A DNA stretch of 28,612 nucleotides from a virus, in IMG/VR virus record IMGVR_UViG_3300036944_000025, positions 1-28,612 of that record; one strand, 5' to 3'. The position numbers and the translations under genes were made by a program. Position 1 is the first letter of the stretch, and every line of letters begins with the position of its first letter. Below are positions 2-28,612 of this stretch, in pieces. The notes under the pieces were generated by a model, which was given only the letters and a program-made list of their open reading frames with translations, searched no databases and had not been told where the DNA came from.

Positions 2-934
2 GAATGGCAAACTGACGAATTGGCTGCTCCTACTTCTGCTGCTGTTGCTGAAGGCGTATCATACGCTACTCAGAACTCTGCTCAAGGTGCAGAACCATTC
101 CGTACTCGTTTGGGTAACTACACTCAAATCAACAGCAAGACTGTTACCGTAACTGGTACTAAGCGTGCTGTCGATCAAGCTGGTGTTGCTGACGAATACG
201 CATACCAGCTCAAGAAGCGTGGTACTGAACTTCGCCGTGACGTAGAGTTTGACTTGGTCAACTCATGGAACAGCTCAAACGGTTCAGGCACTCGTAAATT
301 CGGTGGCTACCAGTCATGGGTTAACTACACTGCAGCTACTACTACTCCTGCCACAGCACTAAACGTGTTGACTACTGGCGCTGAGTACACTGCTCCTACT
401 AACGTTGGCGCTGGTATTGCTGGTACTTTCACTACTGTTACTTCTGCTGATAAGAACAGCTTACAGTTGTCACACGTTGACACCGTAATGCAAGCTATCT
501 ACGAAAACGGTGGTAAGGCTACTAAGCTAATGTTGTCTCCTGCTAACCGCCGTGTATTCTCAGCTAAGGCTCAGTCTGCTGGTTCAAGCACAAGCAACGC
601 TGGTGACGGTAACGTTCGTCGTAACATCGACGCTGACGGTAAGCTCCGCCAATCCGTTGAAATCTACATGTCTGACTTCGGCGACATCATGGTTGTTCCT
701 AACTACGTAATGGGTATTTCTAATACTACCGTTTCTGGTTTGGACCAAGCTGCTAACTTCAGCGCGTTCCTCTATGACCCAATGTGGTTCAGCTACGCTT
801 CATTGCGTCCTCTACAAGAAGTTGACCTCGGTCAGCTTGGTGACTCTATCATCGGTCAAATCGTTGAAGAAGGTACCTTGGAGTGTCGTAATCCAAAAGG
901 CGCTGGCTTGATCTTCGGTTTGTCAGGTGCTTAA
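2..934 (+). CDS. Major capsid protein, SU10-like (5' partial)
   Basis: Structural shell protein of the head. The reading frame is open to the left edge, so the true start lies outside the window; a TTG at 20 is an internal Leu codon, because the residues before it (EWQTDEL) fit this family's N-terminus. The first visible third, with RLGNYTQINSKTVTVTGT followed by AVDQAGVADEYAYQLKKRG and ELRRDVEF, is the signature I know from SU10-type (DUF5309) capsid proteins. A later segment, VMQAIYENGG then KLMLSPANRRVFS, and the C-terminal PMWFSYASLRPLQEVDLG also fit. About 310 residues are visible, so little is missing. Codon use is biased to C-ending aac, tac, ttc and gac, unlike the next genes, as expected for a very highly expressed gene. 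A strong terminator follows directly. Confidence 0.9.
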   Translation, partial: EWQTDELAAPTSAAVAEGVSYATQNSAQGAEPFRTRLGNYTQINSKTVTVTGTKRAVDQAGVADEYAYQLKKRGTELRRDVEFDLVNSWNSSNGSGTRKFGGYQSWVNYTAATTTPATALNVLTTGAEYTAPTNVGAGIAGTFTTVTSADKNSLQLSHVDTVMQAIYENGGKATKLMLSPANRRVFSAKAQSAGSSTSNAGDGNVRRNIDADGKLRQSVEIYMSDFGDIMVVPNYVMGISNTTVSGLDQAANFSAFLYDPMWFSYASLRPLQEVDLGQLGDSIIGQIVEEGTLECRNPKGAGLIFGLSGA

Positions 935-943
935 TAGCTAATT

Positions 944-974
944 AAAAGGGAGGGGAGAAATCCTTTCCCTTTTT
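944..974 (+). terminator. Intrinsic terminator after the capsid gene
   Basis: Ten bases after the capsid stop codon, AAAAGGGA pairs with TCCCTTTT, extended by two G-T wobble pairs and two G-C pairs to a stem of about 12 bp around a loop AGAAAT. A run of T follows, partly inside the stem. This is the classical rho-independent form, and it is the only good hairpin in the only gap above 50 bases. It probably sets capsid mRNA apart from the downstream genes. Partial read-through must occur unless a promoter exists further on, and I saw none. Confidence 0.8.
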
Positions 975-990
975 ATTTCAAAGGATTAAA

Positions 991-1266
991 ATGGAATTTC
1001 TAAGAATTACAGCAAGTGATGGTACAAGAAAGTACATCCCTGATAATTATGTTGCGCAGATTTCTGTTGCTGCAGATACAGGCACTACTGCTTCTAACTA
1101 CGCAGCTTCAACAGTTGTTCGTGGTAAAATTACTGGTGTTAAATATTACGATGGCGCTAATGCTACTGCAGGTGCTTTAGTAGTTGTTACCGATGTATCA
1201 ACCGCTAAATACGAGTATGGCTGTCATACCGTTGATGGTTCATTCAGCGCAGCATTATCTAATTAA
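991..1266 (+). CDS. Small conserved virion-region protein, unknown
   Basis: A 91-residue protein directly downstream of the capsid gene and its terminator. The start has AAAGGA nine bases upstream. The sequence is soluble, Ala/Thr/Val-rich, with alternating hydrophobic residues (VVRGKITGVKYY, ALVVVTDVST) that suggest a small beta-structured domain; there is no signal peptide or membrane segment. Its place between capsid and adaptor genes would suit a head decoration, cement or head-completion protein, but I do not recognise the family and this role is inference. Confidence 0.6.
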   Translation: MEFLRITASDGTRKYIPDNYVAQISVAADTGTTASNYAASTVVRGKITGVKYYDGANATAGALVVVTDVSTAKYEYGCHTVDGSFSAALSN

Positions 1267-1281
1267 TACAAAGAGGACACA

Positions 1282-1605
1282 ATGGGGTTTCTATCACAAG
1301 AAAATAACAAAAATAGTTTCACAGTTAAGGCTGATGAAAAAGATTTTAAATTAGAACAAGACGTTCAAGCATATAAAGATTATGCTGCCCTTTCCCGTGA
1401 GCGCGATTCATTTGCATCTAACGGAAGAACATATCGCTCATTCGCTATTATTCCAGATATTGTAGCTATTGATATGTTGACTAAACACGGTTTAGATATT
1501 CATGCCCCTGACTTCATGCATGACCCTCTTAACCTACGTAAATTAAAGAAAGTCATTGACACGGATTATCCCGCACTCAAGACAAGTAATGTAAGAGCCT
1601 TATAA
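1282..1605 (+). CDS. Small conserved protein between capsid and adaptor
   Basis: A 107-residue soluble protein with a good ribosome site (AGAGGA) before the ATG. The N-terminal third is charged and probably helical (ADEKDFKLEQDVQAYKDYAAL). The C-terminal part has RSFAIIPDIVAIDMLTKHGL, then HDPLNLRKLKKVI and DYPALKTSN. I have the impression that this IPDIVA...HGLDI pattern recurs in small proteins beside the capsid gene of other podoviruses, but no function is known to me. It lies 12 bases before the adaptor gene, in the same apparent transcript. Confidence 0.6.
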   Translation: MGFLSQENNKNSFTVKADEKDFKLEQDVQAYKDYAALSRERDSFASNGRTYRSFAIIPDIVAIDMLTKHGLDIHAPDFMHDPLNLRKLKKVIDTDYPALKTSNVRAL

Positions 1606-1617
1606 GGAGAATAACAT

Positions 1618-2529
1618 ATGGCAACACCCAAATTTGACGCATTAGTCGCCAAAGTAAGAGACTGGTCAAACAAACCCGAAGTACAAACTATTCCCGACAG
1701 CGTTATTGGTGATTGCCTATCTTATTCTGCCGATGAAGCTTACCGCCAATTAAGAATTCCTCCACTAGAGTATTCTACTATTTATACTGTAACTGCAGAA
1801 GATAACATTGGTGAGAATAGCTTAGGTCTACCTTATGGTAACGCGTATACATCATTCGCAATTCCTGAAGACCTCACACAGTTTGTGTTCTTACGTACAT
1901 TAGCTCAAGAAAACGCTGGCACTTCATATTCAACATTCCCTTCTAACGTTAGTAAAGTGTTTCATGAAGTAACTGATAAACGTACTTTCTTTGATATCTA
2001 CAGTGAGAAGTATTCAGTATACAACTGGATGTGGATGGAAGGTAAAATCTTTATTCATCCTCAATTAGCTGTAGGTGCTCAAGTAGAAATTCACTATTAC
2101 CGTAGACTACCTGCTTTAGACGCAGTGTATGATGTATCCCCTATTAACTACGTTATTGGTTTGCCTGACGCAGAACAACCTTACTTATCACCTGTAGTTT
2201 CAGGCGGTATTAACTTGTATTTATCTACTGCAAACAGTATTCAAAAGTGTTTTCAAACATTAGCTGAAGCTCAAGTATATAACTCTACAGTAACAACTAA
2301 AATGTTTACTGGCAAAGAAGTATCTAACTGGCTACGAGACAGTAATGAACGATTAGTCGTATGGGGTGCATTGTATAACTTAGGTGCATACCTATTTGAC
2401 GATACAATGGAAAAGAGATATGAAAAGAAATTCATGGAAAACTTATTGTCTATGAATAAAGAAGAGAAAATGCGTAGAGCATCCGGTGGTAACGTTCAAA
2501 TGAACTTTAACAGCAACGGCAACATCTAA
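1618..2529 (+). CDS. Head-to-tail adaptor protein (P22 gp4 / T7 gp11-like role)
   Basis: A 303-residue protein with a strong AAGGAG ribosome site. The N-terminal half is helical (FDALVAKVRDWSNKPEVQTI, then DSVIGDCLSYSADEAYRQLR), followed by a beta-rich part with IPEDLTQFVFLRTL and MWMEGKIFIHP, then VEIHYYRRLPAL, and a helical C-terminus rich in Lys/Glu. This order (helix bundle, IPxD...F...R, xGxxFxxxP, Y/LxYYRxxPxL) is what I associate with podovirus adaptor proteins that ring the portal and bind the tail nozzle. The gene directly precedes the first fibre gene, while the nozzle gene lies 10 kb away. The exact Pfam family needs a profile search. Confidence 0.7.
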   Translation: MATPKFDALVAKVRDWSNKPEVQTIPDSVIGDCLSYSADEAYRQLRIPPLEYSTIYTVTAEDNIGENSLGLPYGNAYTSFAIPEDLTQFVFLRTLAQENAGTSYSTFPSNVSKVFHEVTDKRTFFDIYSEKYSVYNWMWMEGKIFIHPQLAVGAQVEIHYYRRLPALDAVYDVSPINYVIGLPDAEQPYLSPVVSGGINLYLSTANSIQKCFQTLAEAQVYNSTVTTKMFTGKEVSNWLRDSNERLVVWGALYNLGAYLFDDTMEKRYEKKFMENLLSMNKEEKMRRASGGNVQMNFNSNGNI

Positions 2530-2539
2530 GGAGAGTCTA

Positions 2540-3691
2540 ATGGCATACGAACAAAAACCGGGTATGACCGGAAATATCTCAGGTGGTGGTGAGTATGATG
2601 ACTTAGACACGGTCAATTCCCATAACTATTTGATTTTAGGTGCTGAAGATGCTGCTGCTGCAGCTCTTAGTGCCGCCGCTGCATTAGCTTCTCAAAATGC
2701 TGCTGCTGTATCTGCTGCTGCTGCCTTAGTATCTGAGATTGCTGCTGATGCTTCTGAGGCTGCTGCCTTAGCATCACAAAATGCCGCATCTGCATCTGCA
2801 AGTGCATCTGCTACGTCAGCCACCAATAGTGCTAACAGTGCTTCTGCTTCAGCTACGTCTGCAACGAACTCTGCTAACAGCGCTACTACAGCAACTACAC
2901 AGGCTGGTATTGCAACAACTCAAGCAGGTATTGCTACAACGCAAGCATCTAATGCTGCAGCTTCTGCTAGTGACGCTGCAACTACGTTAGCTGCAGTTCA
3001 GACTGTATTTGATAACTTTGATGATATCTACTTAGGTGCTAAAGCAAGTGACCCAACATTAGATAATGACGGTAACGCTCTTGTTGCGGGTCAGCTATAC
3101 TGGAATACTACAGAGCAAGAGATTAGATTCTATAACGGTGCAGCTTGGGAACGTCCAGAATATTCAGCATCACAGTCAGCTATTAATGCGGCTAACTCTG
3201 CTACATCAGCTTCCACTAGTGCTTCAACAGCAACCACTCAAGCAGGTATTGCTACTACACAGGCATCTAATGCTAGCACCTCAGCGGCTGCAGCTTTAAC
3301 CTCTGAAAATAACGCCGCAACAAGCGCAACTACAGCAACTACTCAAGCATCTAACGCTTCTACAAGTGCTACTAATGCGGCTACCTCTGCAACTAACTCT
3401 GCAGCTTCTGCTACTTCAGCGGCTTCTAGTGCTGGTACTGCTACAACTCAGGCTGGTATTGCGACTACTCAGGCAGGTAATGCGGCTACATCTGCGGCTG
3501 ATGCGGCAGCAAGTGCTGTTGACGCTGCAACAATCTTATCAACATCACTCAAGATTGCTAACAATCTTTCTGACTTGAATAACGTAGCAACAGCAAGAAC
3601 CAACTTAGGTTTAGGTTCTGCTGCTCTGAATAACACCGCTGACTTTGATGCGGCTGGTGTAGGTGTCGCAATGAGTATTGCTTTAGGTTGA
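2540..3691 (+). CDS. Tail fibre protein with Ala/Ser/Thr repeats
   Basis: A 383-residue low-complexity protein, mostly Ala, Ser, Thr and Asn, with repeated units such as ATSATNSANSA and TTQAGIATTQAGIA. Such heptad-like repeats form the long trimeric coiled-coil shafts of phage fibres. A globular insert near residues 150-205 (FDNFDDIYLGAKASDPTL, GQLYWNTTEQEIRFYNG) interrupts the shaft and is a block often seen in phage fibres. The C-terminus has LSDLNNVATARTNLGLGSAA, another standard fibre element. The N-terminus (MAYEQKPGMTGNISGGG) is short. It is the first of the fibre genes. The Leu-rich open frames read in other phases here are by-products of the repeat. Confidence 0.85.
   Translation: MAYEQKPGMTGNISGGGEYDDLDTVNSHNYLILGAEDAAAAALSAAAALASQNAAAVSAAAALVSEIAADASEAAALASQNAASASASASATSATNSANSASASATSATNSANSATTATTQAGIATTQAGIATTQASNAAASASDAATTLAAVQTVFDNFDDIYLGAKASDPTLDNDGNALVAGQLYWNTTEQEIRFYNGAAWERPEYSASQSAINAANSATSASTSASTATTQAGIATTQASNASTSAAAALTSENNAATSATTATTQASNASTSATNAATSATNSAASATSAASSAGTATTQAGIATTQAGNAATSAADAAASAVDAATILSTSLKIANNLSDLNNVATARTNLGLGSAALNNTADFDAAGVGVAMSIALG
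2891..3484 (+). repeat. In-frame tandem and dispersed repeats coding ATTQAGI/ATTQASNA
   Basis: Near-identical units encoding ATTQAGI and ATTQASNA occur at 2891-2956 (three units in tandem), 3230-3274, 3335-3358 and 3440-3484. The third-codon bases vary while the peptide stays the same, so selection acts on the protein rather than on recent DNA duplication. The units belong to the coiled-coil shaft of the fibre gene that contains them, and could allow shaft-length change by recombination. Confidence 0.7.
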
Positions 3692-3707
3692 CATATAAGG
3701 AAAATAA

Positions 3708-4034
3708 ATGGCAAATAATTTTACATCCTACGGTAATAAGTCCGTGGGTACCTCTGCTGCTACAATCGTAACGGTTGGGGCATCTACACAGACAACCATT
3801 ATTGGTTTATCCTGTGCAAACATTAACTCAACGGCTGTATATGCAGACGTTTACTTTACACGTTCAGGTGTAGACTACTATCTAATCAAAGCAGCTTTAG
3901 TACCCGTAGGTGGTTCTTTAGTAGTTGTTGGTGGTGATCAAAAGGTTGTGTTAACAACTAGTGATGCACTTAAAGTAGTATCATCTGTAGCATCTTCGCT
4001 TGATGTTGTAACATCTGTATTGAACATTACTTAA
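3708..4034 (+). CDS. Small tail-associated beta protein, unknown
   Basis: A 108-residue protein starting 16 bases after the fibre gene, with AAGGAAA before ATG. The sequence is Val/Ser/Thr-rich with many short beta strands (AATIVTVGASTQTTIIGLSC, YADVYFTRSGVDYYLIKAAL, VPVGGSLVVVGGDQKVVL). This strand pattern, with the P-GGSLxxxGGxQKxxL turn, is one I associate with small proteins beside tail-fibre genes of aquatic phages, where they are called structural or tail proteins. No enzymatic motif or membrane segment is visible. A fibre-base or fibre-tip role is inferred from position only. Confidence 0.6.
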   Translation: MANNFTSYGNKSVGTSAATIVTVGASTQTTIIGLSCANINSTAVYADVYFTRSGVDYYLIKAALVPVGGSLVVVGGDQKVVLTTSDALKVVSSVASSLDVVTSVLNIT

Positions 4035-4043
4035 GGAGTCTTC

Positions 4044-5198
4044 ATGGCATATATTGGATCAGCTCCAACAGCTAATACTTCTCAGTTTAGTTCTATTTAT
4101 ACACAGTCCTTTAGTGGTACTGGTGCAGCTACTTCATTTACTTTAGGTAGAGCAGTAGCCAGTGTTAACAACATTGAAGTTATTGTTAACAACGTTCAAC
4201 AGTCTCCTTTTGATGGTTCTTATACTGTTACCGGATTGACTACGCTATTGTTCAGTGAAGCACCTTCAAGCGGTACTAACAATATTTATGTTGTTTATCG
4301 TGATCAACCTTTATTAACCCTTACAGACGCAGGTGCAGTACGGCAAGATAGTATTACAGGTGCAGCTCAAATGCCTTTTGGTACTACTGCCCAAAGAACT
4401 AGTGTAGCAGGTGCTGGTATGTTTCGTTATAATACAACAAACCAAGAAGCCGAGTTTTATAATGGTAGCTCATGGAAAGCATTTTCACAACAAGCCACAG
4501 GTATTTACGCTATTGATTATGTTGTAGTGGGCGGTGGTGGTGGTGGCGGCTCTGGTGGAACTGGATCTGGTGCTCAACCAAATGGCGGCGGCGGAGGTGG
4601 AAGTGGCGTTGTTGCTGGATCTACTACTGTTACTACTGCTGCTTCATTTAGTATTGTTGTTGGTGCTGGCGGTACTATTAGCGGTGCAGGGAATGCATCA
4701 ACAGGTTTTTCTGTAACTGCTGGTGGAGGCTCAGCCCACAGTGGTATGTCAGGTGGTACCTCGGGAACACCTCAATCTCTTGGTGGCGGCGGCTCAACAA
4801 CTTACGCTGGTGGCGGCGGTGGTGGTTCTGGGGGAGCAGGTACATCTGGCTACAGCACGTATTACGGCGGCGCAGGTGGTACAGGTTTACTGGCACCAAA
4901 CTTTACTGGCTTTGGTCAGTCTGGCTACTTTGGTGGAGGCGGTGGCGGTGGCCAAGCTTATGGTGGGGGTGCAGGTGGTATGGGCGGAGGTGGCTCAGCT
5001 AACACCGGTCCGGGCACTGCAAATACAGGTGGTGGAGGCTCTGGCGGGTATGGAGCACCAAACACCGGTGCAGCTGGCGGCTCTGGTGTTGTAATAATTC
5101 GTTACTCTGGAACTCCTCGGGGTACAGGTGGCACTATCACACAATCTGGTGGCTACACATACCACACATTCACCTCATCTGGTACATTTACAGCATAA
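4044..5198 (+). CDS. Glycine-rich tail fibre / adhesin
   Basis: A 384-residue protein in three parts. Residues 1-100 (MAYIGSAPTAN, then FTLGRAVASVNNIEVIVNNV, YTVTGLTTLLFSEAPSSGTN) look like the N-terminal virion-anchoring domain shared by T7-type fibres. Residues about 110-155 carry the MPFGTTAQRT...FRYNTTNQEAEFYNGSSW block common in fibres. From about residue 160 to 350 there are many runs of Gly (GGGGGGGSGG and similar) between short aromatic or Thr/Asn loops, ending with GGSGVVIIRYSG. Known phage adhesins of this composition (for example gp38 of phage S16) fold as packed polyglycine-II helices with variable host-binding loops. The C-terminus (GGYTYHTFTSSGTFTA) is a motif that usually accompanies this domain. 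A receptor-binding role is likely. Confidence 0.8.
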   Translation: MAYIGSAPTANTSQFSSIYTQSFSGTGAATSFTLGRAVASVNNIEVIVNNVQQSPFDGSYTVTGLTTLLFSEAPSSGTNNIYVVYRDQPLLTLTDAGAVRQDSITGAAQMPFGTTAQRTSVAGAGMFRYNTTNQEAEFYNGSSWKAFSQQATGIYAIDYVVVGGGGGGGSGGTGSGAQPNGGGGGGSGVVAGSTTVTTAASFSIVVGAGGTISGAGNASTGFSVTAGGGSAHSGMSGGTSGTPQSLGGGGSTTYAGGGGGGSGGAGTSGYSTYYGGAGGTGLLAPNFTGFGQSGYFGGGGGGGQAYGGGAGGMGGGGSANTGPGTANTGGGGSGGYGAPNTGAAGGSGVVIIRYSGTPRGTGGTITQSGGYTYHTFTSSGTFTA

Positions 5199-11890: not shown

Positions 11891-11912
11891 TCGGTACCTA
11901 ATAGGAAACAAA

Positions 11913-18772: not shown

Positions 18773-21499
18773 ATGGGGCCATTATCAGCCAAACAACAAA
18801 GAGAGTGGGCTAAACACCACGCTAAAGAGGCTCGTGAATCCGCTAAGATGGAATCCGAAGAGAGCCGTAAGAACAAATTACATGAGATTAAGCTTCAAGA
18901 AGCTGCTGCTAAAGCTAACCAAGGTATTGGCCACAAAGAAGAAGCTCATGGTTTAAAAATGAAAGAACTAGGTGGTCCTCTAGGTGGTTCTAAGCGTATG
19001 AATCGCCAGAAGTTAGGTTTACCTAGTAACAACCCGTTAGCTGGTGCTGAAGTATTTAGCCGTGGTCAACACATGCTTCCTAAAGGTACTGATACAGTCC
19101 CTGCTATGCTCACTCCCGGTGAAGCTGTTATCCCTAAGGCTGCAGCTCAAGACCCAAAGAATAAATCAATGATTAAGAAGATGGTTCAAGAAGGTCGTAC
19201 TAAGCAGTATGCTATGGGTACTACAGAAGTTCCTGCATACTATGCTATTGGTTCTGAATCAATCCCTAACGTTACTGCTAACTACTATCATACAGATAGT
19301 GCTGCTGCTTTATCTGATGGTACTACTAGTGTACAATACTTTACTGAAGGTGTTGAAGAAGTTGAACGCAAACAATTAGCAAAAGATCAAGCGGCTAGTG
19401 GTATTGTTGGTGATCTAGCGTTAGGCGCTGCTGCAATGCCAGCTGCAATTGTTGGCACACCTCTTGCTATGGGCTACAACAAACTAGCTGATGCAGGTGA
19501 ATGGGTAGCTAACAGTCGTTTAGGTAATTTTGTTTCAGGTAACACAGACGATTTAAAGATTCCTCGTATTGAACGACCTAACTTAGTTAAAGCTAATTGG
19601 CAAGATACAGGGGACGCAATTGCTAACACTGTTAAAACAGCTCAAACAAACTCACAACCTAAACCAGTATCTGTTAGTGAACTTAACCCTGAACCTGTTA
19701 AGCCAGAAGTACCTCAAGTATTTAGCTCACCAACAGCTGAAGACCGTTGGGTGTCAACACGAGAGAGTAACAATGACCCTATGGCTAAGAACCCTTTGAG
19801 TTCAGCTAAAGGTCTCTATCAAATGACTGACCCTGCTTGGGTTGACGCTATTAAGCAGAACCCTAAATTAGCAGGTGTTAACCGTGACCTACCAGAAAGC
19901 CAACAATTAGGTCGTGATGCTTACAAAGCTGTATTAGCTAAACAATTACAAGCTCAAGGTATTACACCTACAGAAGAAGCAATTCGTAAGGCATGGGTAG
20001 TAGGTGCTGGTGGTTATTCTAACATTATTAATGCTGACCCTAACGCACCATTAGCAGTAAGTGCTGAAGCTATGAGGATTAACCCTAATTTTAAGGGTAA
20101 AACTAACGGTGAGTTTATTGCAGATGCAAACCCTTACTCAATTAAAGGTAAAGGTTATGTACCTGAACCTCGTATCCAAGCTAAAGCAACAGATCCTGAA
20201 CAAAAGAAACTTGATCAAGCTTACAAAGAGTTTAAGAAGGGTGGACCTCTACCTGCTGGCGCTCCTACTGAGATTGCTGAACGTGATACACGTATTGCTG
20301 AATTCTCTAAGAGTATTATCGATGATGAAAACTCAAACAAGAAAATTGATCAGATCGTAAATGATAAAAATTCCGCTCCAGAAATTATTAAGAATAAATT
20401 AACAAGTTTGTTCAAAGAAATTTATGGACCAACAGGAATGTTCAATGATCGTGAGTTACTACGATTCTCTTTATTAGCTAGTGCAAGTAAGGCGTTTGGT
20501 TACAACACAGCTCAGTCTGTACGTTATGCTGCTCGTGATACGTTAGCTGCAGCTGACAAGCGTTACACTGCTGAAGCTTCTGCTCGTGTAGAGTCTGCTA
20601 AAAATCAACGTGAATTATTAGAACGACTTGATCAAGATTATCGTACTGCATTAGGTGCTAATGTATCTCCTCAAGCTCGTAAAGCAGCTATGGATGCATG
20701 GGGTACAACTAAAAACGTAGAATCTAAGCGTAAGGTAATTGAATTTATTCGTTCACAAACTGACCATAATACGGGCGAAGGTTCTAAACCTAACAAACCT
20801 GAGATTGGTTACATTGGTGACAAACAAGTTCAATATCGTAATTATCAAGGTAACAATCAAGTATTAGACTCTACTACAGGTGATTGGAAGAGCACTTCAA
20901 CAATGATTACTCCTAAGCTTGATTACGATAAGAATCGTGATGATATCTTTAAGTCATCAGTTAACCGTATTGCCCCGTTGTTGCATAGTACTTACAGCAA
21001 AGGTGATAAGAACTATAGTATGGGCGTTGCTGAAGGTCAAGCTAAAGCACACGCTGAGGCATTAGCTTTACTGCATGGTGAACTAGGTGGTACAGTAGAT
21101 AAGACTTCATTTGCTAAGATGGCAGAAAACACTATGCGTTCAGCTATCGACACTGCTAAAGCATCTGGTACACAACTCACTGAGGAAGGTATCCGTAAAG
21201 CTTTCTACGGTAACGCTGTGATTGAAGGTCGTGTAGGTTCTAATAAAGACTTATACATGACTAAAGATCCAAAGAATCCATTACCCTCTGCTGAGTACCA
21301 AGTAGTATTAGGTAACTTCTTAGACAATCAAAAGAAAACTCGTGGCTTAAATGCTGGTGAAGCTTCTAATGCTCTTGAAAAAGCATGGGAATCACTAGAT
21401 AAAAACCAAAAGAAAAAGTACACTGATATGTCTAAAGGCGCTCCCGGCTCTACGCCTATGCTATTCTGGTTGTATTCAACTGGTGGTAAATCAAAATAA
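18773..21499 (+). CDS. Large ejection protein with lytic transglycosylase domain
   Basis: A 908-residue protein with an AAGGAG site. Residues 1-65 are a highly charged helix (WAKHHAKEARESAKMESEES). Residues 105-120 are GTDTVPAMLTPGEAVI, a motif best known from tape measure proteins. Residues about 322-420 form a transglycosylase-type lysozyme domain: RESNNDPMAKNP (candidate catalytic Glu331), AKGLYQMTDPAW (346-357), then WVVGAGGYSNI. Such enzymes cut the glycan strand for DNA entry. The remaining 450 residues are Lys/Glu-rich and helical. It is followed by the nuclease-bearing and polymerase-like genes. Confidence 0.8.
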   Translation: MGPLSAKQQREWAKHHAKEARESAKMESEESRKNKLHEIKLQEAAAKANQGIGHKEEAHGLKMKELGGPLGGSKRMNRQKLGLPSNNPLAGAEVFSRGQHMLPKGTDTVPAMLTPGEAVIPKAAAQDPKNKSMIKKMVQEGRTKQYAMGTTEVPAYYAIGSESIPNVTANYYHTDSAAALSDGTTSVQYFTEGVEEVERKQLAKDQAASGIVGDLALGAAAMPAAIVGTPLAMGYNKLADAGEWVANSRLGNFVSGNTDDLKIPRIERPNLVKANWQDTGDAIANTVKTAQTNSQPKPVSVSELNPEPVKPEVPQVFSSPTAEDRWVSTRESNNDPMAKNPLSSAKGLYQMTDPAWVDAIKQNPKLAGVNRDLPESQQLGRDAYKAVLAKQLQAQGITPTEEAIRKAWVVGAGGYSNIINADPNAPLAVSAEAMRINPNFKGKTNGEFIADANPYSIKGKGYVPEPRIQAKATDPEQKKLDQAYKEFKKGGPLPAGAPTEIAERDTRIAEFSKSIIDDENSNKKIDQIVNDKNSAPEIIKNKLTSLFKEIYGPTGMFNDRELLRFSLLASASKAFGYNTAQSVRYAARDTLAAADKRYTAEASARVESAKNQRELLERLDQDYRTALGANVSPQARKAAMDAWGTTKNVESKRKVIEFIRSQTDHNTGEGSKPNKPEIGYIGDKQVQYRNYQGNNQVLDSTTGDWKSTSTMITPKLDYDKNRDDIFKSSVNRIAPLLHSTYSKGDKNYSMGVAEGQAKAHAEALALLHGELGGTVDKTSFAKMAENTMRSAIDTAKASGTQLTEEGIRKAFYGNAVIEGRVGSNKDLYMTKDPKNPLPSAEYQVVLGNFLDNQKKTRGLNAGEASNALEKAWESLDKNQKKKYTDMSKGAPGSTPMLFWLYSTGGKSK

Positions 21500-21514: not shown

Positions 21515-24500
21515 ATGAGTAACTTAGATTATTTTCTTGAGGAGGCTGCTAAGGCTAAACAAGCTGACGGTGGCTCTCCTGTAACTACTATCAACGGTAA
21601 ACCTGTAGGTTCCCCTGTTGAAGTTATTGACCCTGACACTGTTAAATCAGGAGGTCAGTCTTATCGTCTTAGGGGTTTCAACGCCCCTGAGACTGCCAAG
21701 ATTCAAGGCGGTATTTTCGTACCTAATCAGGTACAGAACGACACATCCCAGTTCGATGTGGATACTATCGCCCGTTTAGGTGGCTACACAAACTTAGAGG
21801 TTGATGGTAAAGATCCATACAACCGTTTGCTAGCTAAACAAACTAATGCACAAGGGCAATCTTTAGGTGACACACTCACTGCATTAGGTCTACAAAGAAC
21901 TACATTACACAGTTCTGATGAGGCAGTACGCCGTAACGCTTCTCTAAGCGCTATCACTAAAGTAATGCCTGAGTTGGTAGATGCTGACCCAATGTTAAGG
22001 TTAGCTCGTCAACGTAAAGAGGAAGCTATCCAGCAAGCTGGTGGTAACCCTCTCTATATTCCTAAATCAGTAGCGCTAGATGAGCAGATGTATGCTGCTA
22101 TCAAGAACTCTACTGGTATTCCCGCTGTTAAAGAAGAACAAGATGAGATCACTCGTCTAAGTAAGATTCTTCGGGAAGAAAAACTTAAGCCTGAAACTAG
22201 AACAAGGCTTGAAGAAAAATTAAAAGAGTCCCGTACAAGACTCTATATTGCTGCAACATCTCCTGACTCTGCTGGTGTAATGGTACGTCATAATGACCGT
22301 TCTATGATGAACCAAGCACATGATCAATTCACCACAACCCTACACAGAGCAAGCTTAGACTTGTATAAGAGTATGGGTGGTATCTTAGAAATGTCTGGTG
22401 ATAAGGCTAAGTGGGACTGGTTGAAAGATCAGGGACAAACAATGTCTCGTTCAACTAAGACTCAACAAGAGTTAATGGCTGATACAATGACGTCTTATAA
22501 AGACATCAACACTAACAATGCATGGTCTACTATTAAAGATAGTGCTACCTATGCGGGTAACTTAATTGCGGGTACACTACCAAGTATGGCTGTTATGCTA
22601 GGCTCTACAGCCGCAACAGGTGGTATGAATATTCCTGCATTAGCTGCAGCAGGATTGTCTACAGTACCTACCTCTCTAATGTACGCTGGTGGCTTCTATG
22701 CTGACCAAGCTGATGACAAAAAGAATGCATCACTAGCCACTACTATGGGTATTGGTTCAGCTGTTCTAGATCGTGTTGGTCTTGAAGGTATGCTAATTAA
22801 GAGTAACGTATTAACACAACAAGGTCGTAATGAGATTGTTGGTTTGTTAAAACAAAAGTCATTAAAAGAAACTGGTAAAGAAATGTCTGATCAGGCTGCT
22901 TTTGATTTAATTGAACAAGCAACTAAGAAAGAACTAGTAGAGTTTTCTACTGCTGGTGCTGCCCTTGCTCGTGATCAATTTAAGTCTAGTGAAGCTGCCT
23001 TACGTGGTCTAGCTCAAGTTGGACAGTCTACTGCTGGTGAAGCATTAACAGAAAGTACTCAACAGTACCTAGAAATGATGGCTCAACAAGGTGTATGGAA
23101 CACTGACATCAAGTATGAACGTGGCTTCTATCAGAACCTTATGGATGCTGCCATTGGTGGTGGTGTTATGGGTGGTGCAATGTCAGGTGTAGGTTCTTTA
23201 AAGAACGCTGCAGAGTGGCATTCACTATCTAATGCTCAAGAGATGTCTAAGAAAGAATTGTCAGATGCTCAAGCATTTAACAATGATCAAGTATTAAGAT
23301 CAAGAGAAGGTGACCCAACAGCGTACGACTCTACAATTAGAATGGCTCATGGTGTTAAGCTACAACAGACTAACAACCCAGTTAAAGCCCTCAAAGATCA
23401 TCCAGCACTAGAAGGTGCTTACAATGGTTTGAAGTCAATCGTTACAGACCCAGGTCGCTTAGTACGTCAGCTAGTTGATACTGCTATTCCTTCTATCACT
23501 CGTGAAGACGGTACCTTTAAGACTAACTTGGCTTACCTAAAGTCTATTATGGGTGGCAAAGGTATTCTCCCCGGAGATCACTATGACGCACTCAAACGTA
23601 AGCTCGTGGGCAGATGGTCAGGTAATACTGCTGAAGATTTAGCGTCTAATCTAGGCGTTAATATGAAGACAGCTAATGACATGGCTAAACAAGCATGGCA
23701 AAATACTTGGTCTAAATTTGACCCTGACACTGGTGAGTACTATCGCCTACCAAAAACAAGCGCACAGAACATTGAGCTACAAGCTTGGAAAGATAATTTA
23801 GATAATTCACTTACAAAGATGAATAACGATTTATCTCAGTATGGCTTATACGCTGATGAGATGAACTCTGTTAACGCTTTATTTGAAACTGCTGCTGTTC
23901 ATCCTGCTACTTTAATGAAGAACAGAGAAGCTGTTACTGCTACAATGATGCGTAACGGTGCTAATCGTAGACAAGCTAACGATGCTATTGAAGGTATTTC
24001 TTCAGGTAATCCTGAGTACGTTCGTAACTCTCGTGACATGATGAAACAATATGGTGTCTTTGCTGACCCATCTTTGAATCATGTATTTGAAACTAACTTG
24101 TTTACAAGTATGAATCAATTAAAAGAGCAGTTAGCACATCGTATCTCAAGTGAAGTTCTACTAGGTAAAGGCGGTGTAGTACTATCTAAATTAATTCAGA
24201 ACGCTAAAGACAGTGGTGAGTTTGAGAATGATCAAGACTACATGGACACTGTTAAGAACGTTCGTGACTGGTATGATATTATTCACGGCAACTATAACCC
24301 ATTGTCTAATTATCCTAAACTAGAAAAGATTCTTGGTTGGGGTACTACAATGACTATGCTTGCTGCCTTAGGTAAGTCTGCATTATCGTCACAAGTAGAA
24401 GTAGCTACCTCAGTACTTGGTACTCAAGGTGATAAAGTTAAAACTCAACTCAGTGAATACTTCAAAACATTTGGTCGTGAGATTCAGAATGATATGAACG

Positions 24501-25762
24501 CTGGATTGTCTTATGGCTTTGCCGCACTAGGTATTGACTACGCTCGTAACAGCCCTCATGCTGCACTCAATAAACAAATTGATAAATGGCAACAAGAGTT
24601 TGATGAGCTTAACACTAAGCCAAACGCTAGCCCAGAAGCTTTAGCTAAATTGAACGATAAGATTCAACATGCTATTAAACAGTCTACTGGTCGCTCTCTG
24701 TTTGAACACTTAGGTTTCAATGAGACAGGTTATAACACTCAAACTAAGTTTGAATTACCTAACAACAGTATGCGTAAGGCAATGCAAACATTTGCTGCTA
24801 TCATTGGCTTGAGAGCCACTACTGATGCTACTCGTATGGCAGTATTAACTGTTGCTTCTGATACCGTTATTGGTAAGCTACAATCATTAATGATGCTTGA
24901 CCCTCAAGCACGAACAATGATGGTTACTTCTGGTAAAGGTTTAACTAACTATCAAGCACAGTCCGTCATGGAACTACAAGAGTACGGTATGAACGTACCA
25001 GCTGTGTTGGATAACTTACAAAAGATTTCTGAACAACAAATCAACCCTTATGATTTCTTCTCTGAAAAGAATTTGACTCAAGATGAGTATCAACCTCTTA
25101 CTAAGGAACAATCTAAGACAGATATTGATTGGAAATTCTTACAAGAAAACATTATGACTACATTAGGTAACTTTGTTGATGCTAAAGTAACTAACCCTCA
25201 GCCACACAACTTACCTAAGTACTACTATGACCCTCGACTACGACTGATTACTACGATGACTCGCTTTATGGCTGGTCTACATAGTACTGTCCTACCTAAG
25301 CTATACCGACAATACCTCTTAGAAGGTAATGCTGGTATGAGATACCAAGCGTTCTCTGTTATTGCTATGTCTATTGCTTTCTCAGCACTAGCTAATGCAA
25401 TCAAAGACCAGTTATCTTATGGTGAAGACAGCCCTTACATCAAGGGCAAAGTAAAGAATACCCAACGTACACTCTACGGTTCAGGTCTTCTAGGTCAATA
25501 CGAGAAGATTGTAGATACAGTAATGCCTCTATACGACAAACAGAAACCATCACCATTTGAAAAGCCCGGTAAATGGGCTTATGAATCAGTGAAAGATCTG
25601 TCGCCTGTCCTATCATGGGCAGAAAAGCCTGTCAGAGCTGCCTTCTTAGCCAGTGAAGGTAAGGATGCAGAAGCTGCTAAACTCGCTCTCAGAGCAACAC
25701 CTGTTATCGGTAGTTTCCCTATCGCAGCAGAAACACTTTCAAACACGTTAAAGGATAAATAA
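21515..25762 (+). CDS. Giant ejection protein with N-terminal SNase-like nuclease domain
   Basis: A 1415-residue protein with AAAGGA upstream. Residues about 28-130 match staphylococcal nuclease: [13 protein letters not shown] (Asp41 for the calcium site), [11 protein letters not shown] (Arg51, Glu59) and [14 protein letters not shown] (Arg104), so all three catalytic positions (Arg/Glu/Arg) are present. One calcium-ligand Asp is replaced by Asn56. The rest is long and mostly helical, with hydrophobic stretches at about 345-400 ([40 protein letters not shown]) and 543-556 ([14 protein letters not shown]) that could insert into a membrane, and another near 945 ([16 protein letters not shown]). 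Size and place suggest a protein injected with the DNA. Its stop overlaps the next start (TAATG). Confidence 0.8.
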
Positions 25763-28612
25763 TGTCTATTCAAACTAAAGTCGCACCTTTAGGGTCTAGT
25801 CGTGGTCTAAACATTGATGACTTAATTGCTCGTCAACAAGCAAGTACAGATGCCTTTGGTTCTGTACAAGCTCCAATGGAAGATCAAGTTGCCAATGCTC
25901 AAGCAATGGTTAACGAGTATGAGCCTCGTCCAATGGATGTACCTGCTCGTAGCATGCCGCCAGAAATGGCGTTAGCTAATGCCAATATGATTGAGTCTCC
26001 CGAAGATGTAGCTGCTACTTCTTACTCACAATTTGGTGCTCGCCCTGTACAAGAGCCTGTGTTCAATCAGGATAACCAACTAGAAGTTGACCCTGAAACT
26101 AATGAGCTTCGCCTCAAAACAATTGGGTCAGAGGCTTACAACAATCAACTGTTCCGTGAGAAGGCTGGTCAGCGACTAGTCTCAGGTGAGATGCATAACT
26201 TAGCTATGCAACCTTTTACTGGTGCTAAAGAAGCTATGTCAGGTCAGTTGAAGTTAGCTTCAGGAGCTGCCTTTGATGCATCAGCAAGAGAGTCAAGTAA
26301 GATTCTCTCTGGTGGTGATGAGATTGACCGTACAGCTGATAAGGCTCAGAGTGGTTTAGCTCAGATGGTTAGCTACGCAAGTAATGCTTTATTTACTGCT
26401 AATGGCCCTATCAAAATTAAGATGGACCACAATGGTGTACAAGTACCTATTGCAGCTGGCTTACTTATTGCTTCGGAAGAAGGTTATCATTCACCTGAAG
26501 ACCAAGCCCCTATCTCACTAGCTTTTGGTGCTGGTTTGATAAAGGCTGCGTCACAAGGTAAGCTTGAAAAGGGTGAAAAGGAAGATAAACGTTCTGTATT
26601 AACACCAACAGGTGCTAAAGTTGATGATGCAATGTATCTTAATGACTTTATCAACGGTGTTAAGCACTATGCGGGTAATGCTCTCGATCGTATGGGTGTT
26701 AAGATGTCACCTAAAGCTAAAGAGCGTATGGCTAAGGCAATGGTTATGTCTGCTGTTCATGATGGTAGTATCCCTGCTTTCCATTATGGTGATCGCGTAG
26801 TAGTTCAGATTGGTCGTGACTTCAAGAACATTGCTAAGGCAACTGAGCGTACACTAGAAGTTATTGCCGGTGACTATAACCGTAGACGTTCCTCTACCGC
26901 ACCTAACCGTAGCGGTGCAGCGTTCTCAGCGGGTGGTCAACAGATGACTCGTAAGTCTCTTCGCCGTGGTGGTATTGATACTACTGCTGCAGAAGCTACT
27001 AAAGACATTTTAGGTTCTATTGCTCTTTACTTTGACCCTAAAGATGTTCAATACAAAGAGATTGAATACACAATGATCACTGACCCTGAATATTTAGTGG
27101 TTGATGAACAAACAGGTGAACCTAAATACAGCAACCATTGGGCAGCTAAACGTAACGGTGTCTCTAAGAAAGACTACGATGCGGCTATGATGAAGACACA
27201 TCCCAAAAAGGACTTTGATAAGAATAATCCTGCTGACGTTATGCAACATGAAGCTAATCAAAAGCGTCAAGCAAGTGAGATTGTTAATGAAAAACTTAAA
27301 TCACTTAAGTTTGATATTGATAATGCAAAAAGTTCACAAGGTCTACGTTACTCAGAGTGGATTCACTCGTTAGCTAACCAACGTTTCTTCCCCAATAGCT
27401 TTGATGTAGACTACATGGGTTCTAAGTCTGGTGTCCGTGATATGCTTGGCTTTGGTAAACGTGACTTAGTGTACTCAGCTAATTTATTTGATGATGACAA
27501 CGGCAAAGGCGGTAAAGTAGCGGCACTTAAGGTTACTGCTAACCGTATTCTACGCCTCAAAGGTGAAGAACAAAACAAAGCGTTGTTAGCTCTGAATCCT
27601 CTTGATGCCTCAGCTATTGGCACTATGCTTAACACAGTTATTGCATACTACTCTGCTGTTAATGGCACACACCCTGACATTGTTAAAGAAGCTCCTGCTA
27701 CTATTGTATCTAAATATACAGTAGATATGGCTAAGTCTCTTGCTGCTGTTGGTCGTGAATATAACCAGTTCTTAAATAACCCTAAGGCGGCTGGTGAAAA
27801 CATTCAACGTCTCCTAGCTGGTATGGAGAAGGGTGAATCAATGGGTAGTAAGAACCTTTGGGACGACATGATGCGTCTTGAAGATAACTTTATTAACCCT
27901 CAGTTGTCTAAGGTACCTGTGATTTTATCTCATCATTCATTCGATGACGGTAATCAGAACGGTATCTTCTTGCAGTCACTATTCTACGGTAATCCTGATA
28001 ATGCTCTTCGTCTAGGTACATTCAATCCTTCATTGGATGACATGCGTGAATACGCTATGAACACAATGCTACCTAAGCTAGAGGATTTACTCAGGGATCA
28101 ACCAGAGAAAATGGAAGCTTGGAATAACTTCTTCAACACAATGCGTGAGAAGTACGGTAAGGCAGGTATGGCTAAAGAGTTCTTTAAGAAACCTCTAATG
28201 CAAACCTCTTATGGTAAAGATGCAGGTATGTTTGGTGAACACTTACTAGACTTACTAGCTGACCAATTCCAAGAAGAAACGGCTGACACATTAGGTTCAA
28301 GCGTATACAAAGATGATATCCCTACTGCCGCTGAAGACTTAAATGCTGCATTAACATTAGCTCTACGTGAAGTAGTTAACTCTGATAACTCACGAATCAT
28401 GGGTAACATTGGTCGATACACTGCTATCCTTAACCATACGGTTATGATGGAAGGTATTGCTGGTGATACATATGTATTCACACCTGTTGAGGTTGTACCT
28501 GTTAACAAAGGTGTTGATAGTGATCAGGTATTACCTGTAACTTTAGCATCTGGCGAACAGATCATGGTTAAAAAGAAAGAACGAGAGTCAGATACTTTCA
28601 GTACACCTGATG
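25762..28612 (+). CDS. Putative virion RNA polymerase, single-subunit (T7/N4-like), 3' partial
   Basis: The ATG overlaps the previous stop, and the frame stays open to the right edge: 950 residues visible. Residues 1-500 have no motif I can name; 1-120 are Pro/Glu-rich and probably disordered. Three later segments follow single-subunit RNA polymerases in order: a T/DxxGR-like site (YSEWIHSLANQRFFPNS, Arg541); motif A (SHHSFDDGNQNGIFLQSL, Asp728 or Asp729 as metal ligand); and motif B (KEFFKKPLMQTSYGKDAGM, Lys809 and Tyr817-Gly818, with the same eight-residue Lys-Tyr spacing as T7 Lys631-Tyr639). Motif C, with the second catalytic Asp, would lie beyond the window. N4 packages such an enzyme; position beside ejection genes suggests the same here, by inference. 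Confidence 0.75.
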   Translation, partial: MSIQTKVAPLGSSRGLNIDDLIARQQASTDAFGSVQAPMEDQVANAQAMVNEYEPRPMDVPARSMPPEMALANANMIESPEDVAATSYSQFGARPVQEPVFNQDNQLEVDPETNELRLKTIGSEAYNNQLFREKAGQRLVSGEMHNLAMQPFTGAKEAMSGQLKLASGAAFDASARESSKILSGGDEIDRTADKAQSGLAQMVSYASNALFTANGPIKIKMDHNGVQVPIAAGLLIASEEGYHSPEDQAPISLAFGAGLIKAASQGKLEKGEKEDKRSVLTPTGAKVDDAMYLNDFINGVKHYAGNALDRMGVKMSPKAKERMAKAMVMSAVHDGSIPAFHYGDRVVVQIGRDFKNIAKATERTLEVIAGDYNRRRSSTAPNRSGAAFSAGGQQMTRKSLRRGGIDTTAAEATKDILGSIALYFDPKDVQYKEIEYTMITDPEYLVVDEQTGEPKYSNHWAAKRNGVSKKDYDAAMMKTHPKKDFDKNNPADVMQHEANQKRQASEIVNEKLKSLKFDIDNAKSSQGLRYSEWIHSLANQRFFPNSFDVDYMGSKSGVRDMLGFGKRDLVYSANLFDDDNGKGGKVAALKVTANRILRLKGEEQNKALLALNPLDASAIGTMLNTVIAYYSAVNGTHPDIVKEAPATIVSKYTVDMAKSLAAVGREYNQFLNNPKAAGENIQRLLAGMEKGESMGSKNLWDDMMRLEDNFINPQLSKVPVILSHHSFDDGNQNGIFLQSLFYGNPDNALRLGTFNPSLDDMREYAMNTMLPKLEDLLRDQPEKMEAWNNFFNTMREKYGKAGMAKEFFKKPLMQTSYGKDAGMFGEHLLDLLADQFQEETADTLGSSVYKDDIPTAAEDLNAALTLALREVVNSDNSRIMGNIGRYTAILNHTVMMEGIAGDTYVFTPVEVVPVNKGVDSDQVLPVTLASGEQIMVKKKERESDTFSTPD

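Follow-up and report, generated by a model that had tools for sequence, protein, structure and literature searches.

Giant T7/N4-type RNA polymerases of the virion have been reported as exclusive to the N4-like family (PMC12633501). In the Schitoviridae these enzymes, termed vRNAPs, are 2,842–3,820 aa in length and carry the motif ExDGxxxG (PMC10654107). A published search of IMG/VR dropped vRNAP-like proteins under 2,500 aa (PMC10654107). The complete open reading frames of the family described here close at 1,196–1,389 aa, and the cut-off would therefore have hidden this group. A group of short-tailed water phages unrelated to N4 carries a single-chain RNA polymerase that is probably packed in the particle and delivered to the cell along with the DNA. 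This enzyme is the last of three giant cysteine-free injection proteins and is present in addition to an ordinary T7-like polymerase; thus the N4 strategy seems to be present in a second phage lineage.

The stretch of DNA analysed, here termed the window, is a whole viral record of 28,612 bases. A major capsid protein gene, its 5′ end cut by the contig, is at positions 2–934 (+ strand) and matches PF17236 (E 3e-59), and the portal of a relative, G003, is of the SU10_portal type (PF23899, E 4.5e-125). This bears out the SU10-type capsid proposed in the initial annotation. Three giant proteins follow at the other end. The first (18773–21499, + strand) has 908 aa, a transglycosylase-like stretch and no cysteine. 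The second (21515–25762, + strand) has 1415 aa, no cysteine and an SNase-like N-terminus (window 21515–22030), in which DxDT, R51, E59 and Y102xR104 are invariant in six diverse homologues; Pfam gives no SNase match for it. The third is the polymerase gene (25762–28612, + strand), whose start overlaps the stop of the second by one base in the sequence TAATG, in agreement with the translational coupling noted initially. Its placement at the end of an ejection-protein cluster also holds: it is the last of the three giants, as it is in all genomes checked, and it closes the structural module in all genomes mapped. In G003 and two further relatives, G008 and G024, the + strand order is terminase, portal, scaffold, SU10 capsid, tail genes and the three giant proteins, with the polymerase last. 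A facing − strand module encodes a T7-like RNA polymerase (733–735 aa), a primase-helicase, a family A DNA polymerase and more.

The family of the 1415-aa protein is homologous to the virion structural protein gp51 of the LUZ24-like Pseudomonas phage tf, with an E value of 6e-16 across 886 columns. The virion status of seven tf proteins was inferred in the tf genome paper from mass spectrometry of LUZ24 (PMC3517423). LUZ24-like phages such as tf have this counterpart of the second giant protein but not the polymerase described here, and ejection itself thus does not depend on this enzyme. The 1415-aa protein was also considered as a split-off N-terminal domain of the N4 vRNAP (PHROG 2206, E 1e-8). 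This was rejected, as a profile comparison with the N4 domain gives an E value of 0.43 and the relationship is with tf gp51 instead.

The final open reading frame of the window, 25762–28611 (+ strand), has 950 codons and is open to the contig end. Its motifs, predicted fold and relatives mark it as the first part of a virion-type single-subunit RNA polymerase gene. Motif A, SFDDGNQNG, is at residues 726–734 (27937–27963, + strand), exactly where the initial annotation placed it, and contains the invariant D729. Motif B, KKPLMQTSYG, is at residues 809–818 (28186–28215, + strand). K809, M813 and Y817-G818 were read correctly at the outset and K809, M813 and Y817 are invariant, but T815 is variable and is off by one relative to the MT--YG segment of T7; T636 of T7 aligns with Q814 rather than with T815. 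A site first described as T/DxxGR-like is actually HSLANQR, at residues 535–541 (27364–27384, + strand). It lacks the glycine and R541 is its sole invariant residue, which falls on the GR of the N4 TxxGR in a profile alignment. R541, D729, K809, M813 and Y817 are conserved in 26 of 26 aligned sequences, and the motifs of the window protein are therefore not a matter of chance.

Relatives were not found by the usual routes. Direct searches with the window polymerase (P0001) gave no homologue in Pfam, PDB sequences, phage records or viral contigs and none of significance in PHROGs. The Pfam RNA_pol profile PF00940 does not match P0001 (E up to 1), nor gp33 of Roseobacter phage CRP-7 or the relative L141 (E up to 0.05). 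The family is beyond the reach of this profile, as is largely the case for N4-type enzymes. PF00940 is a detection profile and not a defining trait; membership of the superfamily was decided by fold and motifs. With the capsid gene as a probe, 80 IMG/VR loci were reached, and comparison of P0001 with 36 records revealed full-length relatives, the closest of which are about 55–56% identical. Most family members are 27–38% identical to P0001. A profile search gave 37 loci. CRP-7 came up in searches with the capsid and the gene upstream of the polymerase, and its gp33 is at the same place; the polymerase and gp33 families match by profile–profile comparison with an E value of 2.8e-25 over 835 columns. 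When 50,697 phage records were searched by tblastn with L141, gp33 was the sole match (E 5e-7). The genome collection searched showed no prophage or cellular copy of the polymerase. One record, G026 (IMGVR_UViG_3300021963_000137), has a whole member at 436–4050 and part of a different member at its other end (60736–61491), which represents either tandem genes or a chimeric assembly.

Motif C is absent from the window because the contig ends inside the polymerase gene. The initial annotation proposed to look for it within about 30–150 codons to the right, and in the relatives an H-D motif is found 81–89 codons beyond the window edge in 25 of 25 cases, in the form VHDSxI...YRNAYNNIAIP. The part missing from the window also includes a PIQSxDGDL block in relatives; its Q and D are kept in 25 of 25, and we take it to correspond to the block that precedes motif C in T7. 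In a second and very divergent clade of seven records, clade 2 (L116, L196, L197, L198, L199, L200 and L202), motif C reads FD rather than HD. These phages have a closely related capsid, 98% identical in G002. In clade 2 only the third giant protein matches the polymerase family (E 3e-6 to 8e-15), and for the two proteins beside it E is 0.04 or worse, which provides an internal negative control for the family match.

The extreme divergence of the family, together with the change from HD to FD in clade 2, could indicate that the protein is packaged and ejected but, having an RNA polymerase as ancestor, is no longer catalytic and has a structural or DNA-binding role in the ejection channel. This appears decidedly unlikely. 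D729, K809, Y817, the aspartate of motif C and the Q and D of the preceding block are invariant despite the divergence, and FD is also found at motif C in the N4 vRNAP profile. The preferred reading is a catalytically competent enzyme.

An AlphaFold2 model of residues 90–1215 (1126 aa) of the L141 protein, which has 1,261 aa in all, has a pLDDT of 84 and a pTM of 0.80. In a Foldseek search of the PDB, all 50 matches listed are single-subunit RNA polymerases (mitochondrial, T7 and N4) with probability 1.0, and the E values are 4e-12 for the mitochondrial enzyme, 2e-10 for T7 and 4e-9 for the N4 vRNAP. VIA-align superposes the model on T7 RNA polymerase with Z 24.7 and an rmsd of 5.5 over 557 residues, and on the N4 mini-vRNAP with Z 16.8 and 6.8 over 724 residues. 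The window protein's own model, which has a pLDDT of 75 and is without motif C, yields a similar match list, with Z 14.8 for yeast mtRNAP (7.9 over 518 residues), 12.1 for T7 and 9.6 for N4. Both models thus match single-subunit RNA polymerases best, as expected of the polymerase right hand postulated in the initial annotation, and the predicted right-hand fold covers the whole catalytic core. A right-hand palm is common to family A DNA polymerases, and the protein might on this ground be a different kind of polymerase, a primase or a DNA polymerase with a T7-like hand that is delivered to prime or repair the entering DNA. This is highly improbable, since the 50 best PDB matches are RNA polymerases over the whole length, the T7-like N-terminal region included, motif B retains the K-x7-Y spacing of RNA polymerases in the window protein family, and the genomes already encode a primase-helicase and a DNA polymerase of family A. 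It is almost certain that the window gene product is a single-subunit RNA polymerase.

Is the enzyme carried in the virion? The window's three cassette proteins, 3,273 residues in all, lack cysteine altogether. The cassettes of three genomes contain 0, 2 and 1 cysteines, where the cysteine frequency of the remaining structural proteins predicts 18.9, 17.5 and 27.4 (P 6e-9, 4e-6 and 3e-11). N4 gp50 (3,500 aa), gp51 and gp52 also have none, and the T7-like RNA polymerases of the family's phages have 10–14. The N4 capsid protein is likewise cysteine-free, and absence of cysteine is therefore supportive but is no proof. Together with gene position, cysteine depletion provides correlative support for packaging. 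The fold alone would equally suit a real single-subunit RNA polymerase of the late operon that is not packaged and acts in the cell late, beside the T7-like enzyme. Such a role is unlikely: the protein is the last of three giants of an ejection cassette and is depleted of cysteine as they and the N4 vRNAP are, unlike the other polymerase, and a late-only enzyme would duplicate the T7-like one, for which candidate promoters are already present at the head of the structural module. From gene place, N4-like cysteine depletion, homologous neighbours, conserved cassette position and the separate T7-like polymerase in the same genomes, we infer packaging, ejection and early transcription. That the polymerase is packaged and ejected is very likely; given packaging, it is likely to very likely that it starts early transcription.

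The second polymerase, detected with PF00940, is present in 14 records, and all 14 also carry a family member (seven of clade A, six of clade 2 and CRP-7). A sequence resembling a T7-type promoter, about AGTCGGTACCTAATAGRGAA, is found in the window and in the relatives G008, G003, G024 and G018, on both strands and in the gene direction. In three genomes it is repeated in the gene direction in the − strand module and directly 5′ of terL. With up to three mismatches there are 8, 12 and 7 such sites in the three genomes, compared with about 2.4 expected, some of them being chance matches inside open reading frames. The motif is read as the promoter of the T7-like enzyme. In the window a candidate T7-type promoter, CGGTACCTAATAGGAAA, is upstream of phoH (11892–11908, + strand). 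Taken alone this site would be a weak candidate, and the argument for it is its conservation at the same place in G003. A hairpin scan showed no recurrent or convincing N4-like promoter hairpin. A different hairpin, GTTAGG-NNNN-CCTAAC, is conserved directly 5′ of the gene adjoining the DNA polymerase in G008 (42755), G003 (58665) and G024 (32812); ARAGORN detects no tRNA there. Five tRNA genes (Arg, Met, Trp, Tyr and Asn) are located between the two polymerase genes of G008 (L107:11890–12971, − strand).

If middle and late genes are transcribed by the T7-like enzyme, its first mRNA must have another maker, either the polymerase brought in by ejection or that of the host. We propose that the third ejection protein is a single-subunit RNA polymerase of about 1,200–1,300 residues, catalytically competent and carried in the virion, and that it would enter the cell through the tail together with the other two cysteine-free giants. 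It would then transcribe the first phage genes from the entering DNA, leading to production of the phage's T7-like RNA polymerase, and the latter would transcribe the middle and late genes from T7-type promoters. The observations on which this model is based are the fold, the catalytic motifs, gene position, cysteine depletion, the co-occurrence of a T7-like polymerase and the candidate T7-type promoters. The model as a whole, with transcription started by the ejected polymerase and handed over to the T7-like enzyme, is likely at best. More tentatively, and with some doubt, the family may be a deep lineage of phage single-subunit RNA polymerases, the third besides N4 vRNAP and T7 RNA polymerase and at about the limit of sequence-profile reach from both. 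It would be a free-standing ejection protein of SU10-capsid phages in a two-enzyme cascade where host RNA polymerase is perhaps dispensable, and might also pull the DNA in.

A compact relative of the N4 enzyme in a separate and widespread lineage would show that the virion-polymerase strategy is more general. It would set the polymerase apart from the end domains specific to N4, which would help in asking how an enzyme in its folded state gets through a narrow tail. CRP-7, with its gp33 of no assigned function, offers a cultured test case. This protein (QBQ72826.1, "hypothetical protein"; L002:15964–19671) is a full-length homologue, about 20% identical, at the same place and with an HD motif C. 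Neither gp33 nor gp34 has a cysteine, and the T7-like RNA polymerase gp30 is beside gp33. The CRP-7 genome paper reports one RNA polymerase (ORF30) and proposes no function for gp33 (PMC6918029). Within the literature searched, no earlier claim of a gp33-type protein as a polymerase was found, and none of its papers from 2020 on mentions CRP-7 together with "podovirus".

At the sequence level the family is distant from both known types. Its profile matches N4 vRNAP with an E value of 1.3e-4 and the T7 type with 1e-3, compared with 3.6e-11 between N4 vRNAP and T7. As a control, the upstream ejection protein gives 0.3. In the alignments to N4, R541 and motifs A and B are in register. The clade 2 profile matches N4 vRNAP at 3.7e-6 over 563 columns and the T7-like enzymes of the same phages at 0.12. 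Sequence leans slightly to N4 and fold to T7, and neither is claimed as sister. T7 RNA polymerase (gp1 of Autographiviridae) shares the fold (Z 24.7) and catalytic residues but is an early, non-virion enzyme with 12 cysteines, and its profile similarity is barely detectable (E 0.001).

The crAss-like virion RNA polymerase resembles the proposed enzyme in being a phage RNA polymerase delivered with the DNA, but is multisubunit-related and does not have the T7/N4 fold. The same likeness and difference apply to the virion polymerases of phiKZ and P23-45, which are related to multisubunit cellular RNAPs (PMC10770324; PMC7598289). The putative vRNAP of Stenotrophomonas phage StenR_269 is a large cysteine-free protein, also proposed as a virion RNA polymerase outside Schitoviridae (PMC10747016). 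That proposal is based only on size, helicity and lack of cysteine, and the present one on motifs and fold; StenR_269 is compared here by description only.

N4 gp50 is another close known system. Shared properties are the single-subunit RNA polymerase fold, the DGxxxG of motif A, the K-x7-Y of motif B, the [HF]D of motif C and the lack of cysteine (0–2 in relatives of the window protein). In N4, two smaller ejection proteins, gp52 then gp51, precede gp50, which ends the structural module, and the order is the same here. N4 also has a second phage polymerase, the RNAPII heterodimer, in place of which there is one T7-like chain. The relatives, at about 1,200–1,390 aa, have about a third of the length of the Schitoviridae enzymes, and no similarity to the N4 N- and C-terminal domains was found in the family. 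FDDGNQNG keeps the DGxxxG of ExDGxxxG but not the E, and the capsid and portal types differ from those of N4 (SU10_MCP in the window, SU10_portal in G003). By length, domains and ExDGxxxG motif the protein is therefore not filed as a Schitoviridae vRNAP, although it would work like the N4 enzyme.
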